NCBI GenBank assembly: GCA_903914615.1 | Contig: CAIWPS010000453.1 | Coordinates: forward strand, 1-34,464 | Length of the DNA stretch: 34,464 nucleotides | Reading direction: 5' to 3' | Source of the DNA: an uncultured beta proteobacterium | GTDB lineage: Bacteria > Pseudomonadota > Gammaproteobacteria > Burkholderiales > Burkholderiaceae_C | Part shown: positions 2 to 20,517 of the stretch, piece by piece | Layout of the letters: the number at the start of each line of letters is the position of its first letter | Position numbering within the stretch: position 1 is the first letter of the stretch | Notes under the pieces: model-generated | The model's input: the letters and a program-made list of their open reading frames with translations, nothing else | The model's database searches: none | What the model was told of the DNA's origin: nothing | Made by a program: the position numbers and the translations under genes

Positions 2-775
2 TCATCGATGCCGCTCCCGTGGCAGCGCAGCCAGCGCCCTACGAACGGTTCCCGACCGAATGGCTGGAACGCAAGATCGCAGAAGGCCCAGACGTTGACA
101 TCGGGGCAGCGCAGCCAGCGCCCGAAGTGCCGAGCGTGCCGTTTGGCTACGTGGTCGATTTGCACGAGCCGGCTGGCCATCCTGAAAGCCGCCTGCCGCT
201 GGGCCTGGCGCAAGCACGGCCTGTGCGAGAGCGCCCCGACCACGCGCATGCAGATGCCGGCCGTGCGCAACGAGCGCCACGTCTACGCCACCCGGCGCCA
301 GATGCTGACGCTGGCCCGCGCGGCGGACCGGCACGATGTGCGGGTGCTGATCCGCACAGCCTTCTACACCGGCATGCGCCTGGGCGAGCTGATGCGGGTG
401 GAGATCTTCGGCGGCGCGCTGCACCTGGCCGACACCAAGAACGGCGAGCGCCGCTCGATCCCGGCCCACAGGGCGATCCAGACTTGCCTGCGCTACCTGC
501 CGCTCACCGCCGGCAAGCGAACGCTGCAGGCTGGCTTCCTGCGCGCGCGACGCGCGGTAGGCCTGGACCACATCCGCATCCACGATCTGCGGCACAGCGC
601 GGCCAGCGAAATGATCAACGCCGACGTCGACCTGTTCACCGTCGGCGCCGTCCTGGGGCACAAGGACCCGCGCTCGACGCAGCGCTACGCCCACTTGAAG
701 CACGAGACGCTGGCGGACGCGGTGGGCAAGATTGGCCGGAAAGATCCGCACAAGGACCACCCGAAGGCGGCTTGA
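2..775 (+). CDS. int: Tyrosine recombinase (phage integrase), C-terminal part, 5' end unresolved
   Basis: Site-specific recombinase for phage integration and excision. The catalytic domain is clear from about position 170 on: first Arg in TGMRLGEL, then HDLRHSAAS (H-x-x-R), then LGHKDPRSTQRYAHL (second His and the nucleophile Tyr). It ends at TGA 773-775, about 40 bp from a tRNA-Ser 3' half, the usual place for an integrase next to its att site. The first ~150 bases in this frame read as an Arg/Ser-rich peptide unlike an integrase N-terminus, while frame 1 over the same bases looks more protein-like. A real start is therefore not identifiable: the gene may begin outside the window, be frameshifted, or be truncated. 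A 19-bp direct repeat (21-39 and 105-123) lies in this doubtful part. The catalytic assignment is firm; the 5' boundary is not. Confidence 0.8.
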   Translation, partial: SSMPLPWQRSQRPTNGSRPNGWNARSQKAQTLTSGQRSQRPKCRACRLATWSICTSRLAILKAACRWAWRKHGLCESAPTTRMQMPAVRNERHVYATRRQMLTLARAADRHDVRVLIRTAFYTGMRLGELMRVEIFGGALHLADTKNGERRSIPAHRAIQTCLRYLPLTAGKRTLQAGFLRARRAVGLDHIRIHDLRHSAASEMINADVDLFTVGAVLGHKDPRSTQRYAHLKHETLADAVGKIGRKDPHKDHPKAA

Positions 776-13581: not shown

Positions 13582-14536
13582 CTGGGCTGCCCGTTCCAAA
13601 GCCGGTGTCGGGGATCTGGCTGGAACTCAGCCATGCAATGTCCGGCGTCGAGATGTCCATGCGCAGCGTGCGCGACGTAGTGCCATGGCCCAGTTCGCGC
13701 GCGACCGCGCGGGTGTAGGTCTCGTACTCCTGCGAGTAGTCCAGCCCCTTGGCCCGCTTCCAGCGCCACTGCAGCCCGAGGATCATCAGATCATCTTCGA
13801 GCAGGTAAGTGTCGGTGTCGCTGGTGAAGTACTGCGCCGGCGTCGTGCCGCCGGTCATGCACCAGTTCACCGAGTAGTACTCAAACACCAGCAGATTGCT
13901 GTCGTAGGGAATCGGGTCCAGGTAGAACAGCCCGTTCATGATCCGATAGCGCCGGCGCGGCCCGGTCGGGCTCAGGCCGGACTTCAGCACCTGCCACTCC
14001 TGCGGCGTCAGCGGCCCGAAGATCTGCCAGCGGTAGCCGCGGTCCCACATGGTGCCCGGGATCATGAAGTCGTAGTCGGTCGGCAGTGCGTAGGACTGTT
14101 CACCGAACGCCATCGACACGCCGCTGGAGGTGCTGGTCGCCGGGTTGTTCACCGTGATGACGCTGCCGGCCACATGCGTGATGGTCGTGGGATATGCCCA
14201 GGCCGTGGCGTTTGAGCCGCCGCTCGAGCAGATGACCCAGCCCACCTGTGGCGCCTGGGTCGGCGGCGTGCCGATGTTGATCGTGTAGCTGCCGGACGTG
14301 TAGCTGCAGTTCGGAATGATGCCGGTCGACTGCACGTTGAACGTGTACTCGGCGCGCAGCTCCTGCCAGCCGCCGGCCGGGCCCGCGGCCTTGCTGCACT
14401 CCTTGCCTTCGCGGTTCGCGAGCGCCAGGAACTGCACGGCATTGGTGTCTGCGGTCGACACGGTCGACGCAGGCGCGGGCAGGCCGAGCTCCGCGCACGC
14501 CGCGGACACCATTTGCAGGAGCGTCAGCTTGACCAC
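13571..14536 (-). CDS. Head-tail adaptor (gp4 / tail tubular A-like)
   Basis: A 321-aa protein with the usual adaptor opening (MVKLTLLQMVSAACAELGLPAP), where helix 1 is followed by '..A..ELGlp.p', then FLALANREGKE and the later YALPTDYDFMIPGTMWDRGYRW segment common in T7 gp11/P22 gp4-type connectors. The C-terminal half contains DTYLLEDDLMILGLQWRWKRAKGLDY, also typical. It should form the dodecameric ring below the portal. A beta-rich insertion (about 65-135) is longer than in small adaptors. Starts at GTG with GAAGG eight bases upstream. Confidence in role is high by motif and order. Confidence 0.8.
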   Translation of the reverse strand: MVKLTLLQMVSAACAELGLPAPASTVSTADTNAVQFLALANREGKECSKAAGPAGGWQELRAEYTFNVQSTGIIPNCSYTSGSYTINIGTPPTQAPQVGWVICSSGGSNATAWAYPTTITHVAGSVITVNNPATSTSSGVSMAFGEQSYALPTDYDFMIPGTMWDRGYRWQIFGPLTPQEWQVLKSGLSPTGPRRRYRIMNGLFYLDPIPYDSNLLVFEYYSVNWCMTGGTTPAQYFTSDTDTYLLEDDLMILGLQWRWKRAKGLDYSQEYETYTRAVARELGHGTTSRTLRMDISTPDIAWLSSSQIPDTGFGTGSPGDS

Positions 14537-14547
14537 CGATCAGGCCT

Positions 14548-14928
14548 TCAGGACGATGCCATCGCGTACATCTGGCCGCCGCCCACGCTGCGGAAGAACG
14601 TGGACTTGCCGGCGGTCACGCTGAAGCCGACGTTGGTTCCGAGCGCGTTGATCTGGCCGCCGATCGGCGGGTAGACCAGGCACGCATTGGCGCCCTGATT
14701 GCTCACGAAGACATCGTCGCCCGGGCCGAAGCCGGCGTTATTGGTCGACAGGATGATGCCGGCGCCGGACGCGCAGGTCGTGACGACGACGTTGTCGCCG
14801 TAGACCAGCGTCGCACCGGTCTGCGTGGTGCCCGCGGCGGTGACGCCGAGCTGCACGTCGCCGACGATTTGCTGCGCGGCAGCCGGCGCCAGGCCGACCC
14901 CCAGGAGTTTTGCTGCACGAGTTCCCAT
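14548..14928 (-). CDS. Small beta-rich virion-block protein (possible stabilising or decoration protein)
   Basis: A 126-aa protein rich in Gly, Val, Thr and Ala with alternating beta-like sequence (VYGDNVVVTTCASGAGIILS, FVSNQGANACLVYPPIGGQINA). AAGG lies six bases before the ATG. It sits between a coiled-coil head protein and the adaptor. Small jelly-roll or beta-sandwich proteins at this place can be head-completion or cement proteins, but I do not recognise the family and the role is inferred only from composition and neighbours. Confidence 0.6.
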   Translation of the reverse strand: MGTRAAKLLGVGLAPAAAQQIVGDVQLGVTAAGTTQTGATLVYGDNVVVTTCASGAGIILSTNNAGFGPGDDVFVSNQGANACLVYPPIGGQINALGTNVGFSVTAGKSTFFRSVGGGQMYAMASS

Positions 14929-14929
14929 T

Positions 14930-15538
14930 TCACGCCTTGCTTTCTGCCGCGTTGCGGCGTTTGGTTTTGACTTCCGCCAGCTCCTTAACCTGCTCCATGA
15001 GCCGGTCGACGTCGAGCCGCAGCGATTGGTTCTCGGACTTCAGGCGCAGCACTTCGGAGCCGTCCGTCGCGTTTTTCAGCCACGCCTGCGCCTTGACCTG
15101 CATCTCGCGCGCGCCCATCCACGTCAGGGCGTGGTCCGGCACTTCGGCCAGCTGCTCGACGGTGTGGATGTTCATGCTCTTCAGGCCCAGTGCCTGACTC
15201 TTGGTCAGCACGGCCCATTCGGTCACCGGCATGCCGGAGTTGACCTGCACCGACTGGTTCTTGAAGGCCTCGTACTGCGTGGGCCAGCGCTGCGGGTCGG
15301 TGGGCGCGCCGCCGTCCGCCTTGAGCTTAGCCGGCCGCTTGACCTCGGTTGAGCGATTGCCGGGGAAGATGATGTGGATGAAGACCACGTCGTCGAAAAC
15401 GGGGTGCCCGGCTTGTTCCGACTTGAAGGGAGACTCCACTGGTTCGGTGAAGAACGTGACGTACAGACCCTTGTCGTCGCCATGTTGGACACGGAGCGAA
15501 TTGCCGCTCTTGACCACTTGCGCACTTGCCAGTTCCAT
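14930..15538 (-). CDS. Phage protein with helix-rich C-terminus, head block
   Basis: A 202-aa protein found by pattern in several phage head regions: a mixed N-terminal part (YVTFFTEPVESPFKSEQAGHPVFDDVVFIHIIFPGNRSTEV), then QYEAFKNQ...GMPVTEWAVLTKSQALGLKSMNIHTVEQLAEVPD, then a coiled coil (EVLRLKSENQSLRLDVDRLMEQVKELAEVK). The 'yeafk..G.p...w..l...q...L....i.TVeqLA' pattern recurs in many phages without a clear function. It follows a terminator (15564-15591), so it may be made less than the capsid genes. Confidence 0.7.
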   Translation of the reverse strand: MELASAQVVKSGNSLRVQHGDDKGLYVTFFTEPVESPFKSEQAGHPVFDDVVFIHIIFPGNRSTEVKRPAKLKADGGAPTDPQRWPTQYEAFKNQSVQVNSGMPVTEWAVLTKSQALGLKSMNIHTVEQLAEVPDHALTWMGAREMQVKAQAWLKNATDGSEVLRLKSENQSLRLDVDRLMEQVKELAEVKTKRRNAAESKA

Positions 15539-15563
15539 TCAGGATTTCCTTCCCAGGGGTTGT

Positions 15564-15591
15564 AAAAAGGCCCCGGGGGTGAGCCGGGGCC
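15564..15591 (-). terminator. Rho-independent terminator after the capsid/decoration genes
   Basis: Minus strand: GGCCCCGG stem, seven-base loop, CCGGGGCC, then TTTTT. It follows the decoration-protein stop (15625) and precedes the next late gene, and so bounds the scaffold-capsid-decoration unit on its downstream side. Confidence 0.85.
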
Positions 15592-15624
15592 GGAAGCGGC
15601 CCGAAGGCCGCGGAGGAGACACAC

Positions 15625-16551
15625 TCAGGTGATGGCAGCCTGCGCGTTCGGGAACGTGCCCCAGGCGATCGCGAAGTTCGCCGGCAGCGTGATCGTGCCG
15701 GACGAGCCGGATCCGAACACCGCAGCAAGCGCGCTGGCGAATTGCAGCCCGCACGCCTGCTTTGACGCAACCACCGTCTGCGACACCACGCCGGTCGTGG
15801 CCCAATAGGCTTGGCTGCCGATGGCCGGAGCGCCGGAAGCCGTCACAGCCATCGCGCCGCTGACCTGGAACCAGCCGTACTGACCCGAGAACGGGTTGGC
15901 CGGCGCCGAGCTGGTCGTCAGCGCGAGCGGGTTGCCGAGCGACACGCCGAGCGCCAGACCGCTGTTGGCGGTGCCGGCCCAGGGCTTGGCCTGCAGGATC
16001 AGGTTGCCGAACGTGTCGGTGGCGTGCACGAACTGGCAGACCATCCCGGCGCCGATGCCCGGCACGTAGGTGCCCTGCACGGTGCTGGACGTGGTCGGCA
16101 CCGCCGGATTCGCCTTCAGGGTGTTGGCGATCAGCGGGTTGTTCGGATTCCAGCGCTGATCCCACACGTAGTTCAGGTTCAGCGTGAAGGTCGTGCCGCT
16201 CGGAACGGTGGCGATCTGCCAGATGCCGTTGTAGGCCGCCGGCGTGAAGCCCGCGAGCTGCACCGGCTGGCCGACCACCAGGCCGTGGGCCGAGCCGGTC
16301 GTCACGGTTGCCACACCCGCCGCCACCGTCACGCTCGACACGGTCTGAGCCGTGATCGGCGCGACCTGCGCGAACAGGAACTGGCCGCCGCCGAAGACCG
16401 GATCGACGCCGTCCACCAGCATCGACGGGTAGCTCGCGCGTCCGTATTTGCCCGAGCTGGTTCCCACCAGCGAGTAGGGGCCGCCGCCTGCATTGTCTGG
16501 CAGGTACAGATCGACCGAGCCCAACAGGCCGTCTTGAGTCACATAAGCCAT
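15625..16551 (-). CDS. Capsid decoration/cement protein candidate
   Basis: A 308-aa Gly/Ala/Thr/Val-rich beta protein directly after the major capsid gene, with AAGGA seven bases before the ATG. No enzyme motif, signal peptide or TM segment. Residues 72-128 form an insert module (VTTGSAHGLVVGQPVQLAG ... IATVPSGTTFTL) also seen in the tail protein at 11815-13581; the rest (from about 145) reads as a separate beta domain with GMVCQFVHATDTFGN. Genes in this position often encode capsid cement or stabilising proteins, as in BPP-1-like phages. That role is inferred; the shared module suggests an added Ig-like surface domain. Confidence 0.7.
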   Translation of the reverse strand: MAYVTQDGLLGSVDLYLPDNAGGGPYSLVGTSSGKYGRASYPSMLVDGVDPVFGGGQFLFAQVAPITAQTVSSVTVAAGVATVTTGSAHGLVVGQPVQLAGFTPAAYNGIWQIATVPSGTTFTLNLNYVWDQRWNPNNPLIANTLKANPAVPTTSSTVQGTYVPGIGAGMVCQFVHATDTFGNLILQAKPWAGTANSGLALGVSLGNPLALTTSSAPANPFSGQYGWFQVSGAMAVTASGAPAIGSQAYWATTGVVSQTVVASKQACGLQFASALAAVFGSGSSGTITLPANFAIAWGTFPNAQAAIT

Positions 16552-16578
16552 GATTTTTCCTTGAAAGTTGGGTGTCGA

Positions 16579-18351
16579 TCAGGCGACGAGCGCGCCCTGC
16601 AGGAAGGCGTTGCTCAGCGTCAGGTTGCCGGCGAAGCCGATGAGCTTGACCATTGCGTCCTGGTTCACCGCGTACCGGTCGTCACCGATCGGCACGAAGT
16701 TGCGGGCCGCGGCCGGGCGGAAATAGATGAAGTCGGTGTTCAGGAAGAACATCGAGTTCGTCGGGCTGCCGCCGCCGTATCCCCCGTCCAGCACCACGTC
16801 TGCCGACATGTACTTGATGGCGTCGAAGCCGATCATTGCCTTGTCTTCCGACGCGATGCGCTGGATGGCCTGCAACGATTCCAGGTACAGCCGGTAGAAG
16901 TTGTTGTCGGCCACGATCAGGTCCGGGCGATCGGCGCCGCGAACCTGTTGGACCCACAGCCGGTTCATGTAGGATTGAATGTTGGCCGTCGTGACCGCCG
17001 CGCCGCCGTTGTTCAGGCCGGAGAAAACCTGATTGCGCCAGAACGACCACGCGCTGCGGTCGATGCCGCCGATGATGCCGCTGGTTGGGCTCGAAGACAC
17101 GAGGATCTGCAGGCCGCCGATCTGACGCCCACCGTCCGCGGTGCCGTCGCTGTAGCAGTCCAGCGCGATGTTGTTCACCAGCGTGCGCTCGGCGTTGCCG
17201 ATGCGCGACTCGAGCAGGTCGATGATGCGCTCTTCGCCGGCGTTCTGGATTTGCTCCAGGCCGCTGATGGAGACCGCGACCGCCGCCTGGGCGTAGTTGA
17301 ACTCCGCCGCGGTGAAGACGTCGCTCGGCGCGATGTCCAGCATTTCGTAGCCGGAATAGCGCTTGAACGTGCCGTTCTCGGCGTATTCCATCTCTTGAAC
17401 GATGGTGCGACCGCCGCTGACGGGCTTGACCTTGCCTTTGGACTTCAGGCGCCGCAGGAGGGCGTTGTTCTTGGACCTATTCTTTCAGGGCTTGCGCCCG
17501 TCGTCCTCGGCTCTTTATCCGAGGCTCCTGCAGCTTGCTATTCGTCTGCAGAGGAGACTATCTCATCAGCCAGTGCGCTGCTTCGCTTTCGATGCAATCC
17601 CGCCAAGCCGCGCCGCCTCGAGCGTCGGGCGCTGGCCCAATGCTCTCTTCGTGGCGCTGATCTTCGCTCCGTGCCCTTTGGGCTTTCCCAGCTGCGCTTG
17701 CCTTCGCGCCTCGTTCGCTTCTGGCGTCTGAGGGCGCGGCACTGCAGCTGATGCTGCGATGCCTTTTCGGATCGCTGCCGGGATCGGAGCAAAGCTCACT
17801 TGGTGTTCGTTGTAGAGCGCTGCCTGATGCTGCTGCATCCAGGCTAGTTCTCTTACGCGTTTGTCGACCACCGTGGCGTCGTCTGCCAAGTGCTCAAGCT
17901 CGATGGACTCAAAAGCGGATTCGCCGTCTCGCTTCCAGTCTGACTGCAGCTTGGTGCACAGATGCTTGCCCTGGTTCAGCAGGCAGCGATGCTCTCGCAT
18001 ACGCTTGGCCAACTTCCCCTTGGTACATCCGATGTAGACAAACCCGCTCGCTTTGTGGCGGATTGCATAGATCGCTGGCATTCGGAATTCTCCTCTTTGC
18101 AGCACTGACTGTCGGGCGCTCGTGGGCGGGTTATTGTTTCCTCACCGCCTAGTCGTTACGCCTTCGTTGCCCCTGGGCCTTTCAGCTTACATGCAACGCT
18201 TGGCTCGGTGTTGCCATCGCAGGTTTTCACCGAGTTCACCCGATTTTACAACGTCTGAAAGTTAAACGTTGTCTGCCACTTTGCCGGTGCGATTGCGGAG
18301 CGTGGTGGTCACGATTTCCGTCATCGCCGACGATGGGTTGATCAGAGACAT
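16579..18351 (-). CDS. Major capsid protein, gene split by a group I intron (exons 18351-18265 and 17475-16579)
   Basis: Exon 1 (29 codons) begins MSLINPSSAMTEIVTTTLRN with GAAGGAA before the ATG and ends ...KVADNV. Exon 2 begins SKNNALLRRLKSKGK and runs 298 codons to TGA at 16579. Unspliced, exon 1 meets TAA at the first intron codon and exon 2 has no start before Met at 17391, in mid-domain. Joined, they give 327 aa with the expected conserved capsid N-terminus (NRTGKVADNV|SKNNALL, GGRTIVQEMEYAENG, YSGYEMLDI), matching HK97-fold coat proteins of podophages in length. It follows the scaffold gene and precedes the decoration gene. Automatic annotation would probably call only the truncated 270-aa exon 2 ORF from 17391. 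Confidence 0.92.
17476..18264 (-). mobile_element. Group I self-splicing intron in the major capsid gene
   Basis: A 789-nt intron. P1: exon end ACAACGTT(T) (18272-18264) pairs over nine bases with the internal guide AGACGTTGT (18256-18248), with the diagnostic U:G pair at the 5' splice site after 18265. The Q-like element GGCAACACCGAGCCAA (about 18215-18200) resembles the tRNA-Leu-type intron core. The R element has ACGACTAG (around 18150) and S has GAUGAGAUAGUC (17567-17556); GACTA/TAGTC form P7. After S come hairpins CCTCGG/CCGAGG and GGGC-GCAA-GCCC (a GNRA loop). The intron ends in G at 17476. The homing endonuclease ORF lies between R and S, in P8. Splicing itself is predicted, not shown. 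Confidence 0.92.
17566..18081 (-). CDS. GIY-YIG homing endonuclease (intron-encoded)
   Basis: A 171-aa protein that would cut intronless capsid alleles to spread the intron. The GIY-YIG domain is N-terminal: AIYAI (3-7), FVYIG (14-18), catalytic Arg27 and His31 in KRMREH, and a candidate Glu78 followed by LYN (89-91). The C-terminal part has GKPKGHGAKISATKRALG (132-149), similar to the NUMOD3 DNA-binding repeat of such enzymes. The start is ATG 18081, with GGAG eight bases upstream; a longer frame start (18105) lacks a site. The stop codon overlaps the intron S element, so the ORF is fitted exactly into P8. No inactivating change is visible. Confidence 0.92.
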   Translation of the reverse strand: MPAIYAIRHKASGFVYIGCTKGKLAKRMREHRCLLNQGKHLCTKLQSDWKRDGESAFESIELEHLADDATVVDKRVRELAWMQQHQAALYNEHQVSFAPIPAAIRKGIAASAAVPRPQTPEANEARRQAQLGKPKGHGAKISATKRALGQRPTLEAARLGGIASKAKQRTG

Positions 18352-18382
18352 GATTGGATTCCTTCAATGAATGGGTGGTGGC

Positions 18383-19519
18383 TCACTCGCGATTCATCAC
18401 TTCGCGATAGGTCGTGCGGATGTCGTCTGCGAGAGAACCGTGCGAGCTTGGCGCCGTCAGGCTTGCGCCACCGGTGGGTGAGCCCACCAGGGTCGAACCT
18501 GCGGCGCGAGCCCGCGTCGCTCTTGCCCGGGCATCGGCCTGCCGTTGCTGGTCTTGCGACTGCAGCAACAGGGGTCGGATCTCGGGGTGTGACCAGCACG
18601 CCGCGTCGTAGGCTTCCTGCAGACCCAACGTCTTGCCCTGTGCGTCGGCAGCCTGGATGAGCAAGCCCATCTGATGCCGGACGTTGGCGAAGTAGATGTT
18701 CTTCGGGTCTGAGGCGAAGCCCTCGATCGTTTGTGCGATCTGTGCTTCTTGCTCTCGAGCGATTTGGGCATCGCCCTGCGACAGTCGCTGCTGGAGTTGC
18801 TGCACCGTTTGGGTCAATGCAGCCACTTGCGGGTCGACTTGTCGCTGGGGCGTCTGCTGTCCACCGCTCAGTTTCTGGAAAATCCGTTGGGGGTTCACCC
18901 CGTATTGCTGAAGGATGCCGATCACGGCGTTTTCCTTCTGGTCCGTCGTGCCGGCCCGCAGCGTGTAGGCCGTCTGCAGCAGCGCGTCCACGGCCTTGAC
19001 CGGGTCGCTGCCCTCCGACTTGATCATTGCGAGATAGGGCTGCACCGTCGATTCGAACGTTTTGCCCAGCACGCGGTGCTCGTCGTGCTTGGTGAAGCCC
19101 TTGTGCACGTCCGCCTCGCGCCGCGCGATCTCGGCCTGGATGTCGGGGTCCAGCGATGCGAACTTCGCCTTGGCCGCCGGCGACCAGGTGTCCGGCGGCC
19201 GGATGGCCGCGGGCGCGGTGGCTGCGTTCGTCGCGGTATTCTCGGCCTGCTGGCCAGCGCGCGCAGCGTCCTGCTGAGCGCCGCTCCTGGGCTGCTGCTC
19301 GACCGGCGCGCCGTCGGCGCTTGTGTCCGGACCCCTGGCCGCCTTCTCCGCGCGGGGCGCGACTTGTTCCTTGTTCGCCGCGAAGCGCCCCGCCTCGTCG
19401 CGGGCCCGGTCGTTGACTTCCTTGAACGCGGATGCAACTGCGCCGCGCACGTCATCGCTGGAGGATTCGACTGGGGCTTCCAGTTCGACGTCACTCTCGA
19501 TCACTGCGTTGTCAGACAT
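18383..19519 (-). CDS. Capsid scaffolding protein
   Basis: A 378-aa acidic, Gln/Ala-rich protein with a disordered-looking N-terminus (MSDNAVIESDVELEAPVESS), a Pro/Gln stretch, and long helices: AAKAKFASLDPDIQAEIARREADVHKG and the coiled-coil AALTQTVQQLQQRLSQGDAQIAREQEAQI. It ends in the short charged helix LADDIRTTYREVMNRE, which probably contacts the coat protein. Composition, length and location just before the capsid gene are those of podophage scaffolds; the 'f..ldp..q..i..R..d...G..k' segment is common in this family. GGAG lies eight bases before the ATG, and a terminator (19544-19560) lies upstream. Confidence 0.85.
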   Translation of the reverse strand: MSDNAVIESDVELEAPVESSSDDVRGAVASAFKEVNDRARDEAGRFAANKEQVAPRAEKAARGPDTSADGAPVEQQPRSGAQQDAARAGQQAENTATNAATAPAAIRPPDTWSPAAKAKFASLDPDIQAEIARREADVHKGFTKHDEHRVLGKTFESTVQPYLAMIKSEGSDPVKAVDALLQTAYTLRAGTTDQKENAVIGILQQYGVNPQRIFQKLSGGQQTPQRQVDPQVAALTQTVQQLQQRLSQGDAQIAREQEAQIAQTIEGFASDPKNIYFANVRHQMGLLIQAADAQGKTLGLQEAYDAACWSHPEIRPLLLQSQDQQRQADARARATRARAAGSTLVGSPTGGASLTAPSSHGSLADDIRTTYREVMNRE

Positions 19520-19538
19520 TCAAAAAGCTCCAGACATG

Positions 19539-19560
19539 AAAAAGGGCCCACAAGGGGCCC
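19539..19560 (-). terminator. Rho-independent terminator upstream of the scaffold gene
   Basis: Minus strand: GGGCCC, five-base loop, GGGCCC, then TTTTTC. It lies between the zinc-ribbon gene (ends 19581) and the scaffold start (19519). With the terminator at 15564-15591 it brackets the scaffold-capsid-decoration unit, which suggests separate control of that unit or read-through by modified polymerase. Confidence 0.8.
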
Positions 19561-19580
19561 GGCTGCGGGTTTATGGATGG

Positions 19581-19940
19581 TCAGGCGGTGTGCTTGGGCA
19601 ACACTTCCTTGACCGCCTGCGCCAACTCGGCGCGCACGTTGAAATCGCCATGGATCTCGCGCTTCTTCATGTTGGGCATCTCGTTGCCGAGCTCGACGTA
19701 GCCGTTGCGTTTTAGGTAGTCGCGGTGCTTGGACCTGCTGGTGATCATCGGTGCGTCACCGGTGGCCACGTCGACGCCCATGGCCTGGTAGGGCTGAATG
19801 TCGGCAATGACCATCGGAGCGCAGACCTTGCGGCGCATCACGCCGTGGCACTGCGGCAAATCAGCGTCGATGCGCGCCACGCTGCGGAAGATGTCCTGCT
19901 CTGCGCCGCATTCGTCGCAGAGCATGGTGTAGAGCGGCAT
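19581..19940 (-). CDS. Zinc-ribbon protein of FmdB-like type
   Basis: A 119-aa protein. The start MPLYTMLCDECGAEQDIF matches FmdB-type zinc ribbons ('MPlY.y.C..Cg.e.e'). The first pair is CDEC; the second half (QCHGVMRRKVCAP) has two further Cys with different spacing, so zinc binding is likely but not certain. A charged helical C-terminus follows. Such proteins occur in several phage head blocks between portal and scaffold; the role is unknown (regulator or structural accessory). Confidence 0.7.
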   Translation of the reverse strand: MPLYTMLCDECGAEQDIFRSVARIDADLPQCHGVMRRKVCAPMVIADIQPYQAMGVDVATGDAPMITSRSKHRDYLKRNGYVELGNEMPNMKKREIHGDFNVRAELAQAVKEVLPKHTA

Positions 19941-19947
19941 GATTGAT

Positions 19948-20517
19948 TCAGGAGAATGCCGCGGTCTGCACGTACCAGACGTTGGACGCCAACCCGGTCT
20001 GGTCCTGCAGGCCGAACTTCATGATCGGCTGTCCCGTCACGCCGACTGCTGTCAGCGGGATGATGTACGTGCCCCACTGGCCGACGACAGGCGCCGGGCC
20101 GTAGGCGCTGATATCGATTCCAGGCTGGATCAGCACGTCGCCGGCCGTGTAGAACGACAGGCTCCATTTCTGATTCGCCTGCGTCGGCTGGAGCACCAGC
20201 GTGATGTGCGTCAGACCTGCCGTGTTGAATGTCTCATTCGGCGCGTACGGGAGCCAGCATCCCCACGCGCCGGTCACGGTGAACGTCAGGTTGGGCGGCG
20301 CGTAGTTGGGCGTGCCGGCGAACGACCAGTCCCCAGCCCAGTTGAACTTGCCGCTGCCGTAGACCACGTTGGTGGACGGCGCAGGAGCTGGCGCAGGGCT
20401 CGGCGCTGGGGTTGGCGCCGGAGCAGGACTGGGCGCGGCCGCTTGCAGCGCCGCAAGCGCGTCCGTGAGAGCCGACTGCAGGGCTGTGAGCGTGGCGATC
20501 GATGTCTGAATGGTCAT
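19948..20517 (-). CDS. Virion-block protein with helix, Ala-Pro linker and beta domain
   Basis: A 189-aa protein: N-terminal helix (MTIQTSIATLTALQSALTDA), Ala-Pro/Ser-Pro/Thr-Pro linker (28-48), then a single beta-rich domain with many aromatics (WAGDWSFAGTPNY, GAWGCWLPYAPNE, KWSLSFYTAGDV, VGQWGTYIIPLTAVG), resembling a carbohydrate-binding beta-sandwich. The start has AAAGGA before the ATG. The layout repeats that of 3256-3999. Between portal and scaffold, a surface decoration protein that helps the virion bind glycans is a reasonable guess; no family is proven. Confidence 0.65.
   Translation of the reverse strand: MTIQTSIATLTALQSALTDALAALQAAAPSPAPAPTPAPSPAPAPAPSTNVVYGSGKFNWAGDWSFAGTPNYAPPNLTFTVTGAWGCWLPYAPNETFNTAGLTHITLVLQPTQANQKWSLSFYTAGDVLIQPGIDISAYGPAPVVGQWGTYIIPLTAVGVTGQPIMKFGLQDQTGLASNVWYVQTAAFS

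Follow-up and report, generated by a model that had tools for sequence, protein, structure and literature searches.

How could a capsid protein be produced from a gene whose two parts lie 789 nt apart, and what kind of element separates them? The question is raised by a stretch of 34,464 nt (hereafter the window), on the reverse strand of which a 29-codon exon 1 (18351-18265 (-)), ending in the residues ADNV and with U at position -1, is followed beyond the insert (18264-17476 (-)) by an exon 2 of 298 codons plus stop (17475-16579 (-)). Exon 2 matches the major head protein family PHROG 9953 (E 1.4e-116) over profile positions 29-328 out of 329; because the match begins at position 29, the first 28 positions represent the part that exon 2 lacks. 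A previous reading of the DNA, made without database searches (the sequence-only reading), had proposed that this is the major capsid protein (MCP) gene and that the insert is a group I intron with a GIY-YIG endonuclease. The identity of the gene is supported by the PHROG match and by annotation in named phages, the MCP being annotated as a single continuous gene (major capsid or virion protein) in Bradyrhizobium ppBjS10J-1, Stenotrophomonas BUCT555 and Mx8.

Intron borders and intronless relatives

The insert lies between MCP codons 29 and 30, has a length divisible by three (789 nt), starts with an in-frame UAA and ends in G17476; seven in-frame stops fall within 17476-18363. From DNA alone the borders are ambiguous by 1 nt (T18264 equals T17475), and the rules of a U·G pair at the 5′ site and a final G resolve this ambiguity, fixing the borders at 18264 and 17476. 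Relatives with exon 2 were drawn from the best 80 of 335 viral contigs, 28 genome contigs and the three named phages, and in 109 of these 111 exon 1 adjoins exon 2 with a gap of 0: in 82 of 83 among the best 80 of 335 viral contigs and the three named phages (L003-L085), and in 27 of the 28 genome contigs (L087-L114), the latter judged by eye. One exception, L012, is a contig that begins at exon 2 and is therefore uninformative on the gap; the other, L087, carries the insert. The 109 intronless relatives are partly redundant, with 57 distinct 21-nt flanks and some contigs common to both collections. The nearest other relative among the best 80 of the 335 viral contigs (L006) has an exon 2 that is 94% identical to that of the window and is without an intron. 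These empty sites agree with the borders of exon 1, the 789-nt insert and exon 2 as first read, and homology to the intronless genes, together with the final-G rule, sets the position of the last intron base, also correctly read as G.

The exon base at -1 is T in all 26 intron carriers and in 11 of the 109 intronless relatives (best 80 of 335 viral contigs, 28 genome contigs and 3 named phages), a contrast that is partly built in because the 5′-site search, which supplied 24 of the 26 carrier rows, accepted a site only if base -1 was T and the intron opened with a stop codon. L157 and L178, which were placed by hand outside that search, likewise have T at -1. The T in the carriers either fits the requirement for a U·G pair or was brought in by homing.

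Positions 13582-20475 (-) of the window recur in L087 (6,894 nt, 99.985% identical). One copy is binned with G000 and the other, L087, with an uncultured Caulobacterales, so that bin membership does not decide the host. Capsid relatives occur in Burkholderiales, Neisseriales, Methylococcales, Hyphomicrobiales and one Caulobacterales bin; given this spread over several orders and the near-identical stretch in the Caulobacterales bin, the Burkholderiales host proposed in the sequence-only reading is only one candidate. The MCP was found in one of 61 genomes searched, the window's own, and was absent from all 36 same-genus genomes searched; plasmid records gave no similar DNA. Elsewhere in the window, ARAGORN called a tRNA-Pro (agg) at 595-686 (-) that overlaps an ORF (8-775) which by eye looks integrase-like; the call is possibly spurious or possibly an attachment site.

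The ribozyme core and its covariation

At the 5′ site, the exon strand of P1 (18265-18272 (-)) pairs with the internal guide sequence GACGUUGU (18248-18255 (-)), its final pair being U·G. A nine-base P1 with the U·G at the codon boundary had been proposed, and RNAfold returns 9 bp, made up of eight exon–guide pairs and a U-A pair. In all 24 script-derived rows, those with shifted sites among them, the guide is complementary to its own exon, and it has been altered together with the exon in L133, L152, L161 and L176. In the two hand-placed rows, both judged by eye, P1 has one mismatch in L157 and the guide of L178 fits.

The helices of the core were followed across homologous introns. P3 (18237-18243 with 18112-18118 (-)) is paired in 100% of cells, with four of seven pairs changed on both sides, and has been swapped as a block, from CGGG/CCCG to CCCC/GGGG and CUUU/AAAG. 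P6a (18193-18198 with 18165-18170 (-)) is also paired in 100% of cells, and five of its six pairs are doubly changed. P4 (18229-18234 with 18204-18209 (-)) is paired in 90.9% of cells; as aligned, one of its six pairs forms in L165 and three in L176. The P7.1 hairpin (18125-18149 (-)), which we looked at as a trait of group I subgroup IA (P7.1/P7.2), is present, with 99% of cells paired and gaps in 3 of 22 rows. The P9 hairpin (17528-17551 (-)) is paired in 81% of cells as drawn, one of the five drawn pairs being mostly unpaired, and P9.1 (17505-17524 (-)) in 99.2%. P7 (GACUA, 18150-18154, with UAGUC, 17556-17560 (-)), whose strands we take to be the R and S elements in the Q, R, S naming, is invariant, so covariation cannot test it.

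Over the 22 rows of the 5′ domain, 97.8% of 584 cells are paired and 16 of 27 pairs are doubly changed, with a covariation of 0.485; shuffled alignments give 0.149 (none of 500 as high) and slid controls no more than 0.118. The 3′ domain (21 rows) is 90.8% paired, with a covariation of 0.685 against 0.182 in shuffles (0 of 500) and at most 0.117 when slid; its count of doubly changed pairs shows no excess over shuffles (123 of 500). P3, P4, P6a, P7.1, P9 and P9.1 co-vary in these 21-22 related introns. The two alignments (A3 and A4) leave out L158, L164, L174 and L181, which have a different core, the shortened L171 and the duplicates L159 and L180; A4 additionally leaves out L176.

The loop that holds the ORF is closed by P8 (18102-18111 with 17567-17576 (-), 10 bp). 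In 19 of 26 introns, with unrelated sequences, a script found P8 spaced 4 nt from the preceding P3 and 3 nt from the following S, and did not find it in this usual register in the other seven (L123, L152, L161, L166, L169, L172 and L175). In L152 and L175 the script took a later S anchor, and correction by eye would put both in register; shuffles match such helices in 41 of 200 (L152) and 68 of 200 (L175). The ORF does lie within the P8 loop, as first read. The accompanying statement that its stop overlaps S was loose: the stop (17568-17566) overlaps the P8 3′ strand and finishes 1 nt ahead of GAGATAGTC, and its overlap with S amounts to at most one base, depending on the chosen start of S. 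Eighteen of 26 introns have an ORF that reaches 2-12 nt into the P8 3′ strand.

An Rfam scan of the whole window at the gathering threshold gave zero matches. The Intron_gpI model (RF00028), suggested earlier as a check, matches at the intron at a permissive threshold, weakly and below its gathering score of 50 (24.1 bits, E 0.001, for a 1.1-kb stretch), that score being a detection threshold and not a defining trait of group I introns; the split DNA-polymerase gene of phage 13a also falls under it, with 37.9 bits. A snoRNA match at the permissive Rfam threshold was taken as chance. The entire 5′ domain folds with a z of -1.29.

A capsid-gene endonuclease and its leader

The ORF within the intron (18081-17566 (-), 171 aa plus stop) encodes a putative GIY-YIG homing endonuclease. 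It matches PF01541 with 36.9 bits (cut-off 22.6; E 4.6e-9), and the columns invariant in 26 endonucleases include Y5, Y16, G18, R27, H31, H40, E78 and N91, among which Y, Y, R, E and N are presumably the catalytic residues of the GIY-YIG domain. Against the PDB, the family profile matched I-TevI (1mk0, E 1.3e-14; 1ln0, E 7.2e-14) and no other structure at E up to 1. In the phage collection, ten records matched the endonuclease at E <= 1e-5, each with less than 60% identity; Phormidium phage Pf-WMP3 gave the best match (43.5% over 69 residues), in a gene without assigned function close to the terminase. Searched at E <= 1e-15 against 399 genomes of the order, the endonuclease profile matched two: the genome of the window and G640 (7.5e-16). 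The match to I-TevI, the empty sites and the covariation in homologous introns together bear out the proposal that the insert is a group I intron encoding a GIY-YIG protein, and the distribution of the ORF fits homing.

With the endonuclease as the query we found L086, a close relative that has an insert at the same site of a diverged capsid gene; further carriers came from pattern scans for P7-P3 and for the leader. Introns at the MCP gene account for 28 of 34 leader-pattern matches, with exon 2 identified on the same contig by tblastn or profile (in L174 by sequence reading only), and six matches lie outside MCP introns (L160, L162, L163, L168, L173 and L179). Among 26 non-redundant rows, the window included, the intron occupies the same codon boundary in 20 and a site at +3 nt in five (DNMS|RNN and similar). 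In L176 it lies 42 nt (14 codons) upstream, where the guide fits, and the usual site reads DNCM; this is a possible site shift. The MCPs of L130 and the window share 37% identity.

A scan for the endonuclease family, based on one C-terminal peptide pattern from capsid-resident members, gave 72 viral loci, with 41 of 113 stretches unconfirmed as relatives. In 71 of these loci the ORF is followed by MCP exon 2; at the 72nd, L190, capsid exon 1 lies before the ORF and the contig stops soon after it. Most loci sit at the window's codon and some are shifted by 3 or 42 nt; many are near copies, both scans together yielding 55 distinct ORF starts (one set aside). Within this collection and sensitivity, the endonuclease lineage occurs only in capsid genes.

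A wider claim, that the ribozyme core class is itself restricted to capsid genes, was rejected, because tblastn matched MCP exon 2 in 17 of 40 contigs with the P7-P3 pattern and in none of the other 23. In L136, L138, L142, L145, L146 and L149 that pattern marks a recurring intron of another gene (exon ~RYDYSSSIREDLED). L158, L164, L174 and L181 share the leader, ORF and site and differ in the P4-P7 region, and their ORFs form one group (support 100/100), suggesting that the ORF module exchanged its ribozyme core or the core its ORF. A single shift event was considered for the +3 site; the ORF tree does not place the +3 introns in one group, yet a single origin remains compatible with it. Further breaks in the MCP gene were seen in L122, L144, L185, L189, L191, L212, L215, L221, L249 and L250, with up to three in L122, and on the contigs L122 and L144 such a break contains the P7-P3 pattern. 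The capsid gene gives the impression of a hot spot for introns.

Ahead of the ORF lies a leader hairpin, GGA-GAAU-UCC (18084-18093 (-)), which places 3 bp over the Shine-Dalgarno sequence 2 nt ahead of the AUG; in most rows the ORF start is preceded by AGAGGRGNATYCC(G/A)AATG. In the leader scan, which itself set the first pair as G-C and left R and Y free to mismatch, all 27 rows match (19 G-C, 8 A-U). The endonuclease scan required no leader, and all correctly placed rows among its 69 leaders, a count that includes the misplaced L247, can pair. Of 56 leaders, one (L247, whose start on the contig of L126 is misplaced) was set aside and L248 (3-nt loop) is out of register; in the 54 distinct leaders, the third pair is G-C in 39 and A-U in 15 and the first is G-C in 52 and U-A in two, with 0 mismatches. 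The third pair changed at least six times on the ORF tree. Among 398 genomes of the phylum, the leader pattern was found in one, the window's own. The paired changes in the hairpin suggest that translation of the ORF may be delayed in a T4-like manner.

The leader might instead act as DNA, as an operator to which the endonuclease binds (I-TevI represses through DNA binding; available parts of PMC2988022), or be just a strong ribosome site. Its outer bases also form a DNA palindrome, its sequence is strongly conserved, and the hairpin by itself is weak (-2 kcal/mol, z -0.87 in the window; z below -1 in one of five folded leaders). Yet the loops differ in sequence and length (GNAU, GAUU, GGUU, CGAA and GAA) while the helix is kept, a pattern that is more RNA-like; we favour a structure acting in the RNA and regard the operator or plain ribosome site as less likely.

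Interpretation and comparison with known systems

We consider it very likely that the window carries a mobile group I intron in the MCP gene, with the proposed splicing, homing, capsid-bound lineage and leader hairpin; judged from its sequence, the intron is real and probably functional as a mobile element. From its structure and the empty sites, it would fold in the capsid transcript, undergo a guanosine-dependent cut after U18265 and leave the exons joined, which would restore a capsid protein of 327 residues. During mixed infection the endonuclease would be expected to cleave capsid genes that lack the intron, close to the ADNV|SKNNALL codons, and repair after the cut would copy the intron into them. 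From the distribution, a probable reason for the restriction of the lineage to the MCP gene is that its target encodes a conserved capsid stretch and so recurs in distant phages. The 3-bp hairpin probably slows translation of the ORF, as a larger structure does for I-TevI in T4.

The contig sits in a bacterial bin, as might be expected if the intron were degenerate and non-splicing and the capsid gene a broken one in a dead prophage. We think this improbable, given an intact ORF with catalytic-type residues, tested helices that are all complete in the window, open reading frames for MCP exon 2, the portal and both terminase ORFs, and an almost identical stretch in a second bin. That the insert is a multiple of three would also suit capsid parts joined in some other way, by an intein or by ribosome bypassing, or kept as two separate proteins. 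The seven in-frame stops exclude an intein, and we know of no ribosome bypass of this length; with one continuous annotated gene in three named phages and a group I core with covariation, the chance of any such arrangement appears negligible.

A tentative extension would treat the endonuclease and its leader hairpin as one unit adapted, in many different phages, to a single stretch of capsid codons. Such a unit would remain in the MCP gene while its ribozyme core is swapped and its precise site moves by 3 or 42 nt, and the hairpin would balance capsid splicing against endonuclease translation. If so, capsid output would hang on an RNA switch of the parasite. That splicing might serve as a control point for virion production, as the sequence-only reading suggested, is likewise speculative. 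Because capsid protein is needed in large amounts, an intron in its gene must be spliced out with high efficiency. In the collection searched, the endonuclease lineage is confined to capsid genes; it offers a natural series on how homing endonucleases choose essential sites, on how an intron can relocate with its guide changing to match, and on whether splicing outside T4 is shielded from translation by RNA structure. It also carries a warning for annotation, in that intron-split capsid genes are easily overlooked in viral metagenomes.

The intron is ordinary in kind, and unusual in keeping to one capsid site. The sequence-only reading had called a capsid-gene intron unusual, which holds only in part: such introns are already known from publications, to which the window adds a further case, and dozens of relatives lie at or near its site. 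No published account of this capsid-site family was found in the literature searched, including the available parts of PMC12363816, PMC10580990 and PMC8557907, with subscription journals mostly outside the search. The available text of PMC3706429 describes an 819-bp probable group I intron in the MCP gene of mycobacteriophage LittleE, with splicing established by RT-PCR and protein N-terminal sequence, and cites lactococcal phage Tuc2009 for a capsid-gene intron. The LittleE intron resembles that of the window in length, gene, a homing endonuclease ORF, the U before it and its final G, but its ORF is on the opposite strand and LAGLIDADG-like (HNH in the legend), and it belongs to another phage group; that text describes no multi-phage lineage at one site. 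Group I introns also occur in MCP genes of the Delta and Zeta groups of crAss-like phages (PMC7886860, available parts, where the window's site family is not described), which are a different phage group and, unlike the window, carry introns in several other core genes as well.

Similarity of another kind links the core to T7-like phages. The P3-P4 block (18198-18249 (-), 49-52 nt) shows 85.7-87.8% identity to introns in the DNA-polymerase genes of T7-like phages, across the 20 matches listed of 27 records; the intron of phage 13a has an HNH endonuclease in the DNA polymerase gene, whereas that of the window has a GIY-YIG endonuclease in the MCP gene. A functional parallel is the td intron of T4, in which, according to the available parts of PMC2988022, a structure over the I-TevI ribosome site delays translation and its loss lowers td splicing, an effect related to the end of the ORF being part of the intron structure. 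Both systems have an endonuclease of the GIY-YIG family, an ORF whose 3′ end lies in the structured core and RNA structure over the ribosome site; T4 differs in the gene (td) and in having a very stable structure tied to promoter choice, against the 3-bp hairpin here. The end of the window's ORF forms part of P8, and would thus parallel the place of the T4 ORF end in its intron.
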